From Polaromonas sp. (GTDB lineage Bacteria > Pseudomonadota > Gammaproteobacteria > Burkholderiales > Burkholderiaceae_C), in NCBI RefSeq assembly GCF_016185115.1, contig NZ_JACPOF010000015.1:62001-126000 (forward strand): a DNA stretch of 64,000 bases. The letters run 5' to 3'. Under the pieces are notes generated by a model, which made no database searches, had not been told where the DNA came from, and saw nothing but the letters and a program-made list of their open reading frames with translations. Of this stretch, positions 17,748 through 21,996 are shown piece by piece. Made by a program: the position numbers and the translations under genes. How positions within the stretch are numbered: position 1 is the stretch's first letter; each line of letters begins with the position of its first letter.

Positions 17748-17777
17748 AAAAAAGCCCCGCAGTGCGGGGCTTTTTTA
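17748..17777. terminator. Bidirectional rho-independent terminator
   Basis: A 7-bp stem GCCCCGC-AGT-GCGGGGC (17754-17770) is preceded by AAAAAA and followed by TTTTTT. It can therefore terminate dctP from the left and the caspase/receptor fusion transcript from the right. Confidence 0.9.
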
Positions 17778-17875: not shown

Positions 17876-19768
17876 CTATCTCCTGGCGAAATAGTCCTCT
17901 ACAGGTCTGTCATTCGGCACCGCCCACGCGGCCCTCGTGCTTTCATTAAGATTTAGCCCCAAACGAAGATTCCTTGGAGGAATTGGCTGTGTAAACCATT
18001 TATCCCAAAGGCGACTCATCTCACCTGTCTTGATCAAACCCACAATAGTTTCTTCCCCAAACCTCTTAAACCCGGAGTCATCTTTACGGATCATGATCGC
18101 AATAGGTTCAGCGCTTAATATTTCACCCACAATTCGGAAATCTGAAGGATTCTTCGACGCAGCAATATTGCCAGCCAGAATTGAGCTGTCCATTACAAAC
18201 GCATCGGCACGGCCAGATTCCAGTTGCAGGAAGCTGTCGGAGTGATCCCTGCCGAAGACTTCCTTAAAGTCGACGCCGGTGGCGCGATTACGTAGCGTCT
18301 GCGCAGAGGTGGTGCCGGTGGTGGTTACGACGGTTTTCCCACCGAGTTGCCCGATATTGCTGATCCCAGAGTTAGCCCTCACAACCATGCGCACTTCTTC
18401 AACAAAAGTCGTGGGGAGAAAAGCCACGTCTTTTTGCCGAATAGCATTATTGGTAGTAGAACCGCACTCAATATCCACCGTTCCGTTCTGAATCATCGGG
18501 ATGCGGTTTTGCGATGTTACCGGTACGTACTGGACGTCGATCCGACGACCAAGGCGCTTTTCGATATCTCCAATTACCTTCTGGCAAATTTCGACATGGT
18601 AGCCAGCATACCGACCTCCACCTAGTGAATAAGAAAACACCCCTGAGGCCTCACGCACCCCCATCGTTATCCGGCCAGATGATGCTATTTTTTGGAGGGT
18701 CGCACTGCTACTGAAATCGCCGGAGGCTGATAAGGAATACTCCTGTTGCCTCGGACTATTCTGAACAGCCGTCGTTACTCCTGCAGGAAGCGAGGGAGAT
18801 GAAACAAGAGCAGCCAGCCCAATTCGCGCACGACCAGCGAAACGACTCGCGGGATAAGCGGTCAAGAATGCTTGATAAGCTCCAGCAGTATTTACGCGTT
18901 GCGTATCTTCCCAAGCTTGGACTTCAACTTCTTCTATTGATGGGAATTTTGTCTCTGCTCTCTGTACTGGCGGTGTGTAAGCGGCAACTGCCTGTCCCGC
19001 CCCGGGGAAGAAGAAAAAATTTCCGCGTAAATCATGCGAAACAGCGGGTCTTTGTTGATGATTCACTTTTCGTGCAATATCGTCCACACGCTCCTTCACG
19101 GCCTCAAAGGCACTCCTTACTTCGGGATTATTGTTCCGGATCACCTGTACCAATTCCCAGGTAAAAAGTCCATTGCGACTCCCATTTCCCGGAACAGAAT
19201 CCAAAGCCTTTTGATCGCGTCCAGCAGACAAGATAACTATTTGACCCGTGGTTGGTTCGGGACGCGCCAGTCCGCGAGTATTACCTATGCTGCGTGTCGC
19301 TTTTTTGGGAAATGGATTGTCTCGGCAGGCATCAATTACAAACACGGAAACGCGAGCATCAGAAAAAGAATCGAGTACTTCAACGAGAGGTATAGCACTT
19401 CGCTCAACTTGACGATCACTGTCAGGCAACGGAATATCGACGGGTAGCAAATATTGATTCGCACCAATTTGCACGCCATGCCCGGCGAAATAAAACACAA
19501 GCTCATCGCCTTTGTTTATCCGTGCTTTAACCTTATCGATAAGGCCCCAAAACTGATCCCGGCTCAAGTCGTCCTGCGCAATAACCTCGAATTTTGCATC
19601 GCGCATTGCCTGAGCGAACAGCCTTGCGTCATTGCGAGCATTCTTCAATGGCTCGACAGTCCGATATGCATCGTTGCCGATAACAATTGCAAACCGCTTA
19701 GGCGACTGAGCATGTACAACGCTAGCCAATACCACTATTACTAGTGATACGAAGAAACGTGTGAGCAT
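17876..19768 (-). CDS. Secreted caspase-like (C14) domain fused to GltI-type amino acid-binding domain
   Basis: A 630-residue protein. Residues 1-20 form a signal peptide (cleavage after VVHA). Residues about 24-250 are a caspase/metacaspase-like domain: strand KRFAIVIGNDAY, catalytic His97 in FYFAGHGVQ, catalytic Cys148 in VFVIDACRDNP. Residues 280-322 hold the short AWEDTQ..AYQAFLTAYPASRFAGRA motif often seen after bacterial caspases. Residues about 357-630 are a complete periplasmic glutamate/aspartate-binding domain, close to the GltI encoded 2.4 kb upstream: 48 of 54 residues match by eye over PVTSQNRIP...KANSGI. The gene starts 24 bases after gltL and is likely co-transcribed with gltIJKL. 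It is more AT-rich than its neighbours (45% GC in a hand-counted 60-base line, against 58% in gltI). The function, presumably periplasmic, is unknown. Confidence 0.9.
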   Translation of the reverse strand: MLTRFFVSLVIVVLASVVHAQSPKRFAIVIGNDAYRTVEPLKNARNDARLFAQAMRDAKFEVIAQDDLSRDQFWGLIDKVKARINKGDELVFYFAGHGVQIGANQYLLPVDIPLPDSDRQVERSAIPLVEVLDSFSDARVSVFVIDACRDNPFPKKATRSIGNTRGLARPEPTTGQIVILSAGRDQKALDSVPGNGSRNGLFTWELVQVIRNNNPEVRSAFEAVKERVDDIARKVNHQQRPAVSHDLRGNFFFFPGAGQAVAAYTPPVQRAETKFPSIEEVEVQAWEDTQRVNTAGAYQAFLTAYPASRFAGRARIGLAALVSSPSLPAGVTTAVQNSPRQQEYSLSASGDFSSSATLQKIASSGRITMGVREASGVFSYSLGGGRYAGYHVEICQKVIGDIEKRLGRRIDVQYVPVTSQNRIPMIQNGTVDIECGSTTNNAIRQKDVAFLPTTFVEEVRMVVRANSGISNIGQLGGKTVVTTTGTTSAQTLRNRATGVDFKEVFGRDHSDSFLQLESGRADAFVMDSSILAGNIAASKNPSDFRIVGEILSAEPIAIMIRKDDSGFKRFGEETIVGLIKTGEMSRLWDKWFTQPIPPRNLRLGLNLNESTRAAWAVPNDRPVEDYFARR

Positions 19769-19792: not shown

Positions 19793-20536
19793 CTAATGCG
19801 CCAGGATCTTGTTGAGGAAATCCTTGGTCCGCGGCTGGCGGTTTTCGGGGTGGCTGAAGAACTCATCCTTCGAGCAATCTTCAAGCATCTTGCCGCCCAC
19901 GTCCATGAAGATCACGCGGCTGCCGACCTTTTTGGCAAAGCCCATTTCATGCGTCACGCACATCATGGTCATGCCATCCAGCGCCAGGCCCATCATGGTA
20001 TCGAGCACTTCGCCGACCATTTCAGGGTCAAGCGCAGAGGTGGGCTCGTCAAACAGCATGGCAATCGGGTCCATGCTGAGCGCACGGGCAATCGCCACAC
20101 GCTGCTGCTGGCCGCCCGACAGCTGTCCGGGGAACTTGTCCTTGTGCAGCATCAGGCCCACACGATCAAGGTACTTCAGGCCGTGAGCCTTGGCATCGGT
20201 GGCATTACGGCCCAGCACCTTCATCTGCGCCAGCGTCAGGTTTTCTGTCACGCTCAGGTGCGGGAAGAGTTCAAAGTTCTGGAACACCATACCGACACGG
20301 CTGCGCAGCTTGGGCAGGTCGGTCTTGGGGTCGTGCACGGCCTGGCCGTCCACAAAGATCTCGCCCTTCTGGAAAGGCTCCAGCGCGTTGATGGTCTTGA
20401 TCAGCGTGGACTTGCCGGAACCCGACGGGCCGCACACCACCACCACTTCACCTTTTTCGATGCTGGTCGTGCAGTCGTTGAGCACCTGCACCGGTCCATA
20501 CCACTTGGACACATTCTTCATTTCAATCATGGCCAT
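19793..20536 (-). CDS. gltL: Glutamate/aspartate ABC transporter ATPase
   Basis: A 247-residue polar-amino-acid ABC ATPase. Walker [10 protein letters not shown] near residues 36-44, Q-loop [10 protein letters not shown], signature LSGGQQQR and Walker [12 protein letters not shown] are intact, followed by the switch His in [12 protein letters not shown] lies 7 bases before the ATG at 20536. It energises import of acidic amino acids with GltJ, GltK and GltI. The following caspase/receptor fusion gene begins 24 bases after its stop. Confidence 0.95.
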
Positions 20537-20585: not shown

Positions 20586-21272
20586 TTAACGAATGATTGC
20601 AATCCTGACCTGCAGGCGCTTGACCATGTAGGACAGTGCAAAACACATCACAAAATAAACAACGGCAGCCAGCAGGTAGGCCTCTTCAGGACGGCCGTAG
20701 ATCTTGCCGGCAGTGCTGAAACCCTTGAGCAGGTCGTAGGCGCCGATGGCGTAAACCAGCGAGGTGTCCTGGAAAAGGATGATGGTCTGCGTGAGCAGAA
20801 TCGGCACCATGTTGCGGAAAGCCTGCGGCAGGATGATCAGCTTCATGTTCTGCGCGTAGGTCATGCCCAGCGCACGGCCGGCGTTGACCTGGCCACGCGA
20901 AATGGACTGTATGCCCGCACGCATGATCTCGCTGAAGTAAGCCGCTTCGAACGCCACGAAGGTGATGATGGCCGAGATCTCTGCACGGTAGTTGCTGCCG
21001 CCGGGAATGATGGCGTAGAAACTGGCCGGCACCAGCAGGAAGAACCACAGGATCACCATGACCAGCGGCACGGAGCGCATGCCGTTGACATAAAAGGTCG
21101 CGGGGATCATCAGGAATTTCTTGCCCGACAGCCGCATCAGCGCCAGTATCGTGCCGAAGATGATGCCGCCTACGGTGGCAATCACCGTCAGCTCAATGCT
21201 GAAGATAAAGCCCTTGATGACGAACTTGGAAATAATGTCCCAGCTCAGGAAGCTCAGGTCGAGTCCAAACAT
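20586..21272 (-). CDS. gltK: Glutamate/aspartate ABC transporter permease
   Basis: A 228-residue His/Glu/Gln/Arg/opine-family permease with five or so hydrophobic helices. The EAA loop, EIMRAGIQSISRGQVNAGRA, contacts the ATPase. The start at 21272 is chosen because GGAGG precedes it by 8 bases; the longer reading from 21335 has no support. Only one base separates it from the gltJ stop. Confidence 0.93.
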   Translation of the reverse strand: MFGLDLSFLSWDIISKFVIKGFIFSIELTVIATVGGIIFGTILALMRLSGKKFLMIPATFYVNGMRSVPLVMVILWFFLLVPASFYAIIPGGSNYRAEISAIITFVAFEAAYFSEIMRAGIQSISRGQVNAGRALGMTYAQNMKLIILPQAFRNMVPILLTQTIILFQDTSLVYAIGAYDLLKGFSTAGKIYGRPEEAYLLAAVVYFVMCFALSYMVKRLQVRIAIIR

Positions 21273-21273
21273 G

Positions 21274-21996
21274 TCAGTGTCCTCCACCAGTTGCACCGGC
21301 CACCACAAAGCCCGGTATCTGCAGTTTCTTCTCAACCACCGCCATCACCCGGTTGACCGCAAAGGCCGAGGCCGCATACAGCAGGGTGACGGCCAGGTAG
21401 ATTTCAATGCCGCGCGAGGTTTCTTCCTGTGCCTGCATGGCGAACATGGTGAGCTCGGCAATCGACACGGCAAACGCCACAGATGAATTTTTCAGCAGGT
21501 TCATGGACTCGCTGGTGAGCGGCGGGATGATGATGCGAAACGCCATCGGCAGGATCACATAACGGTAGGTTTGCGCCGTCGTGAAGCCCATGGCCATGCC
21601 GGCGTAACGCTGTCCGCGCGGCAGGGCCTGGATACCGGCCCTGACCTGTTCTGCAATACGCGACGAGGTAAAAAAACCGAGCGCAAACACCACCAGGATG
21701 AAGCTCGGCAGGTTTTTCATCGCCGGGAATATCTTGGGGATGACAAAGTACCAGATGAAGATCTGCACCAGCAGCGGTACGTTGCGGAAAAGCTCAACCC
21801 AAGCGTTGGCCAGCCGGACCAGCCACGGGCTGTTGGGCAGGGTGCGCATGGTGCCTATGAGCGCGCCGAAAATCATGGCGACGACCCACGAGGCGCCGGC
21901 CACTGACAGCGTCCAGCCCCAGGCATCGAACATCCACTGCAGGTAGGTACGGCCGCTGCCGTCATCTTGCAAAAATACTTTCCAGTCCCAGGTCAT
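21274..21996 (-). CDS. gltJ: Glutamate/aspartate ABC transporter permease
   Basis: A 240-residue inner-membrane permease, partner of GltK. The EAA-type loop IAEQVRAGIQALPRGQRYAG is present, with hydrophobic helices on both sides. The N-terminal MTWDWKVFLQDDGSGRTYLQ matches GltJ-type proteins with a short periplasmic lead. It lies between gltI (149 bases upstream, with a hairpin between) and gltK. Confidence 0.93.
   Translation of the reverse strand: MTWDWKVFLQDDGSGRTYLQWMFDAWGWTLSVAGASWVVAMIFGALIGTMRTLPNSPWLVRLANAWVELFRNVPLLVQIFIWYFVIPKIFPAMKNLPSFILVVFALGFFTSSRIAEQVRAGIQALPRGQRYAGMAMGFTTAQTYRYVILPMAFRIIIPPLTSESMNLLKNSSVAFAVSIAELTMFAMQAQEETSRGIEIYLAVTLLYAASAFAVNRVMAVVEKKLQIPGFVVAGATGGGH

Follow-up and report, generated by a model that had tools for sequence, protein, structure and literature searches.

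A caspase-type protease joined to a glutamate/aspartate-type receptor domain behind gltIJKL in Polaromonas, and its modular relatives

Could a bacterial caspase-type protease be controlled by the receptor of an amino acid importer? The question is raised by a gene of Polaromonas sp. located in a 64,000-nucleotide stretch of contig NZ_JACPOF010000015.1 (positions 62,001 to 126,000; this whole stretch is called the window hereafter). The gene (17876..19768, minus strand) lies behind gltIJKL and encodes a protein of 630 amino acids in which a C14 caspase-type domain precedes a GltI-type binding domain. For this protein, a ligand may be guessed from the sequence, namely glutamate or aspartate (Glu/Asp). 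The protein is best read as a member of a modular, predicted-exported C14 family having exchangeable C-terminal modules, among them receptors of the SBP_bac_3, TctC, DctP and Peripla_BP_6 types.

The two halves of the fusion protein

The gene forms a single unbroken frame of 630 codons. A Pfam scan of its translation recognizes Peptidase_C14 at residues 24-252 (19013..19699; E 2e-31, 109.9 bits for a cut-off of 21.4) and SBP_bac_3 at residues 367-593 (E 1e-20). Open reading frame and Pfam thus confirm what a preliminary description, made from the letters alone, had proposed: one 630-residue frame with a caspase-like domain and a full GltI-type domain. The frameshift or sequencing error that it had considered as a possible objection was not seen, and a frameshift or assembly join is ruled out by the open frame and by 22 other clusters carrying both domains. 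The N-terminus (residues 1-21, 19706..19768) is hydrophobic and signal-like, with a predicted helix at 2-18 and, by eye, an Ala-x-Ala-like site. These features agree with the signal peptide reported earlier, and the fusion protein is predicted to be exported to the periplasm. Between the halves, the structural model contains a helical linker (residues 278-322, 18803..18937) flanked by low-confidence stretches (260-273 and 324-345). The linker carries AW...AY..FL..YP repeats, and similar ones are discernible by eye in other C14 proteins.

In the caspase half, the catalytic pair already noted is present as His97 (in AGHG) and Cys148 (in DACR), aligned with His415 and Cys464 of the paracaspase MALT1. 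Asp47 and Asp146, the predicted S1 acids, align with those of MALT1 as well, and from them a cleavage specificity for Arg/Lys is predicted. The pair and the two aspartates are unchanged in all 24 tabulated C14+GltI-type fusions; the loss of the pair among homologues, raised earlier as a possible objection, was not seen. When the protease half was compared by sequence with the PDB at E 0.001, MALT1 was the sole family retrieved; it is also the top structural match of this half. Unlike MALT1, the fusion protein is bacterial, and Pfam finds neither an Ig nor a death domain in it; the absence of an Ig domain places it outside the MALT1-type paracaspases as delimited in PMC6426788. The 'caspase' anti-phage profile of PADLOC gives 36 bits, matching profile positions 1-158 of 453 and residues 23-217 only.

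The GltI-type domain (residues 354-630, 17879..18709) is supported by Pfam, by structure comparison and by alignment of the pocket. Its nearest solved relatives are 2IA4 and 2VHA, the Shigella glutamate/aspartate receptor (GltI/DEBP), with which the predicted model shares the full two-lobed fold and the pocket residues. It differs from GltI/DEBP in being joined to a protease, the operon having its own gltI besides (P0002, 22146..23045, minus strand). The receptor half and the product of this gltI are 70% identical over 281 aligned residues. The near-identity claimed earlier holds by eye for residues 416-469 (48 of 54). A recent copy is not involved: third codon positions are 39% identical between the receptor half and gltI, and GC content at third codon positions (GC3) in the receptor half is 0.52 against 0.80, which rules out a recent tandem duplication. 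With the NCBIfam model of the glutamate/aspartate receptor, the fusion reaches 243 bits for a cut-off of 375, and the gltI product of the window likewise stays below (271.6).

The window fusion keeps 10 of 10 pocket columns. The equivalents of Arg24, Arg75, Arg97 and His164, which we take to be pocket members of GltI, are unchanged in 24 of the 24 fusions. Ser375 and Ser419 correspond to S27 and S72 of GltI, which, in the passages concerned of PMC10942590, contact the ligand carboxylate. By these residues, Glu/Asp would be the likely ligand of the receptor half.

Repeated joining and exchange of modules

Twenty-five distinct C14+GltI-type fusions were collected, the window's included, with two near-duplicate pairs (P0007/P0008 and P0012/P0013). 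Clusters with both domains numbered 23, again with the window's, among the best 120 of a protein search; the fusion of Diaphorobacter sp. HDW4B (G018) was added by a genome scan, and P0208, whose receptor half scores 337 bits with our own GltI-type profile, by the listing of a C14+TctC query. A profile search started from 15 fusions brought no C14+SBP_bac_3 protein beyond the known 23 among the best 120 listed.

The caspase halves do not descend from one joining event. In the tree of caspase halves, sixteen fusions (P0001 and P0003-P0017) group together with a support of 100, and their sister is P0033, a C14+FGE protein. A single ancestral fusion is ruled out for the caspase halves, the arrangement of 14 fusions as one clade having a p value of 2.9e-43 in the approximately unbiased test (p-AU); this test comprised 14 of the 25 fusions and 41 other C14 proteins, and the clade was named after the tree had been seen. 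For the receptor halves, the tree places most fusions within the gltI clade of the window's genus, the branches being long and the inner nodes weakly supported.

Close pairs tell of exchange at the C-terminal end. P0018 and P0070 share 92% identity in their caspase halves; for P0070, the other domain listed is PF04052, presumably the TolB N-terminal domain. P0208, P0213 and P0230 have caspase halves 93-98% identical, and ends that are GltI-type, FGE and devoid of a further Pfam domain; for all three, the contig measures 27,130 bases and is presumably one and the same. This looks like a cassette exchange. In P0021 the order is inverted, with the GltI-type receptor N-terminal and C14 C-terminal. 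A C14+TctC query returned 14 receptor-domain proteins among 120 listed: nine with TctC (two being Diaphorobacter's own), three of Peripla_BP_6/ANF_receptor type, one with DctP and one with SBP_bac_3. The best 120 of the C14+SBP_bac_3 search contribute two more TctC fusions and one more DctP fusion. An FGE-sulfatase-type module occurs in many other C14 relatives.

Within the core fusions (14 of the 16), the caspase half is more conserved than the receptor half (0.87 and 0.70), which holds for 90 of 91 pairs. This difference and the swapping of modules suggest an enzyme that stays the same while its reader changes. The Diaphorobacter locus (L080, 6754-19319) carries seven C14 genes on the same strand within 12.6 kb, in the order C14+TctC, C14, C14+TctC, C14, C14+SBP_bac_3, C14+DUF4384, C14+DUF4384, where plain C14 means no second Pfam match. 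Such rows with exchanged modules would amount to natural swap experiments.

As for individual proteins, a Peripla_BP_6 branched-chain-type receptor is joined to C14 in P0239 (named from Sphaerotilus), P0188 and P0255, and a DctP receptor in P0043 and P0296. P0150 has two C14-matching stretches, one region matching CHAT too. By eye, a transposase-like gene follows the Diaphorobacter row.

Orthocaspases, or prokaryotic metacaspases, resemble these proteins in having the C14 His-Cys pair and an extra domain that is often C-terminal, and domain-swapping has been suggested for a Microcystis strain in passages of the papers on them (PMC3501461, PMC5756287, PMC6426788). In one of these papers, an ANF_receptor ligand-binding domain is listed for one Cyanothece protein only, and the terms solute-binding, SBP and periplasmic are absent from the main text (PMC3501461). 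Unlike the described orthocaspases, the fusions considered here have arisen more than once and involve several families of transporter receptors. The variable proteins of diversity-generating retroelements (DGR) are likewise similar, with an N-terminal orthocaspase and a variable C-terminal binding module of C-type lectin type. According to the relevant sections of the same source, they differ in being mostly predicted cytosolic, whereas the module here is a two-lobed receptor (PMC7517822). For the kinase versions of these cyanobacterial proteins, its authors propose that the ligand relieves an autoinhibition or that the binding module selects the target; orthocaspase versions are described there as well. 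This is the nearest published idea encountered. No description of a caspase-type domain with transporter receptors (SBP_bac_3, TctC or other solute-binding proteins) was found in the open-access literature. The earlier impression that no such system had been described holds in this respect; precedents for a caspase with a ligand-binding domain do exist in the two sources just cited.

Steered proteolysis and its alternatives

We give about an even chance to periplasmic proteolysis steered by a ligand or a partner, in which an Arg/Lys-cutting caspase would be switched or steered by Glu/Asp binding. Binding of Glu/Asp would close the receptor half, and closure would free, pair or position the caspase half near a target at the inner membrane. 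The two halves would thereby be coupled, and switching or steering of the protease by glutamate is plausible. Fluorescent sensors have been built on the closing motion of a GltI-type receptor (iGluSnFR, as presented in parts of PMC10942590). Since the ligand is guessable, the idea that C-terminal modules control bacterial caspases could be put to the test with a small molecule that is already known.

Several observations weigh against such steering by Glu/Asp. The model of the fusion has a predicted template modelling score (pTM) of 0.52 and two low-confidence linkers, so that the prediction gives no fixed contact of one half with the other, and hence none for switching; for the same reason, steering or pairing is favoured over rigid allostery. 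Across the core fusions, the pocket is not specially conserved: 7 of its 10 columns are kept, compared with 70 of 126 other conserved GltI columns (p 0.27). The serine equivalent to S27 is absent in 3 of 24 fusions and that equivalent to S72 in 2 of 24, and ligand preference may therefore differ. Among 87 same-genus genomes, the fusion was found in one, the window's own (E up to 1e-155), which makes it accessory. Finally, of the two fusions whose surroundings were read, the window's and Diaphorobacter's, the former alone adjoins gltIJKL.

Receptors of the GltI type dock on their permease in ABC importers. It may then be imagined that the receptor half is an anchor and not a sensor, docking the protease on GltJK; by trimming peptides or proteins at that place, the protease would feed or regulate the importer. 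We regard this as unlikely, yet the position directly behind gltL speaks for it, as does the fact that the other fused receptor types also come from membrane transporters. It is at odds with the Diaphorobacter locus, where no gltJ, gltK or gltL match was found in 19.9 kb around the fusion, though docking on a distant GltJK would be conceivable.

Somewhat more doubtful is the idea of an arbitrary spare domain: a freely recombining C14 family would have picked up the receptor half by chance, and this half would have no ligand-related role. The variety of C-terminal modules, the ordinary conservation of the pocket and the rare, patchy occurrence would all be expected from it. It accounts poorly for three arginines and one histidine unchanged in 24 of 24 fusions, for the joining of the same receptor type more than once and for the recurrence of binding proteins among the modules.

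The composition of the gene raises the question of its origin. Its GC3 is 0.46 (caspase half 0.435, receptor half 0.518), compared with 0.77-0.80 in gltIJKL, and is the lowest among 44 long open reading frames of the window, some of which are spurious; two other C14 genes of the same genome have 0.66 and 0.73. The low GC3, taken with the 39% identity at third positions, argues for acquisition and not for duplication of the neighbouring gltI, and a recent arrival of the fusion behind gltL is likely. Sixteen gltIJKL or fusion regions were fetched, 15 from the same genus (L081-L095) and L080 from Diaphorobacter, and the fusion is absent from all 15 same-genus gltIJKL regions. The link to gltIJKL proposed earlier therefore stands for the position in the window, and is not supported as a general rule. 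That the gene would be a mere passenger, perhaps sharing transcription without any functional link, fits this absence, the deviating GC3 and the variable content past gltL, but we consider it improbable, as it would be an odd coincidence, albeit in a single case, if an incoming gene that carries a GltI half had inserted precisely behind the last gene of gltIJKL.

A more speculative role, to which we attach very little probability, is that of gatekeepers: receptor-fused caspases would each sit on one importer and cut foreign polypeptides entering there, be it GltJK or the transporter that works with a TctC, DctP or branched-chain-type receptor. A contact-dependent inhibition protein enters Burkholderia multivorans through GltJK, a required and species-specific port, GltI being dispensable, and an E. 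coli contact-dependent inhibition protein uses GltJK too (sections of PMC9291907). If gatekeeping were true, the GltI-half caspase in the gltIJKL operon would guard the GltJK port, and several ports would be guarded where caspases that differ in their receptor halves stand in a row.

Surroundings and occurrence

In the window, gltI, gltJ (permease, 21274..21996), gltK (permease, 20586..21296, its start being inferred, as the mechanical reading frame reaches 21335), gltL (ATPase, 19793..20536) and the fusion gene all lie on the minus strand, the glt genes being assigned from open reading frames and Pfam. The 24-base spacing described earlier, between the end of gltL (19793) and the start of the fusion (19768), is confirmed. 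A scan of this gap gave no terminator and no promoter match, which is weak evidence since the matches in the region do not exceed shuffled expectation. The fusion may be co-transcribed with gltIJKL. About 100 bases past the fusion stop, a hairpin with A and T runs (17748..17776) lies between dctP (plus strand) and the fusion gene; in the scan it appears for the plus strand alone, and the bidirectional character attributed to it earlier corresponds to a symmetry seen by eye.

Past gltL, the region is variable among same-genus genomes. The next reference gene is pyrC in 10 of the 15 regions. In L095, pyrC comes after 3.5 kb of other genes, a TctC-like receptor among these; in L088, a short gene precedes the TRAP genes dctP, dctM and dctQ, which are convergent like those of the window; and L085, L092 and L094 have none of the reference genes past gltL.

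Wider searches used genome samples that overlap one another. Among the matches listed for 399 genomes of the family, with three candidates scored per genome, were the fusions of the window and of Diaphorobacter sp. HDW4B; 399 genomes of the order, scored in the same way, gave the window's alone (E up to 1e-160). Six genomes of the Diaphorobacter strain's genus gave its fusion again and no other, and no fusion turned up in sets of 64, 60 and 3 further genomes (matches with E up to 1e-165 or 1e-170). A contig scan yielded 26 loci, in none of which our own profiles found a second fusion. Plasmid records matched in 740 cases, none covering 80% of the query in one place; the 15 listed match the receptor half.

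The window's genome (G000) has five further C14 matches, including C21:358885-360742 (L100 and L101, whose C14 genes are adjacent) and C27:36159-36875 (L099); L099 and L100 carry SH3_3 and DUF4384 too. In Hydrogenophaga and relatives (L015-L020, L023 and L025), family-3-receptor-like frames stand in tandem by two or three, mostly three.
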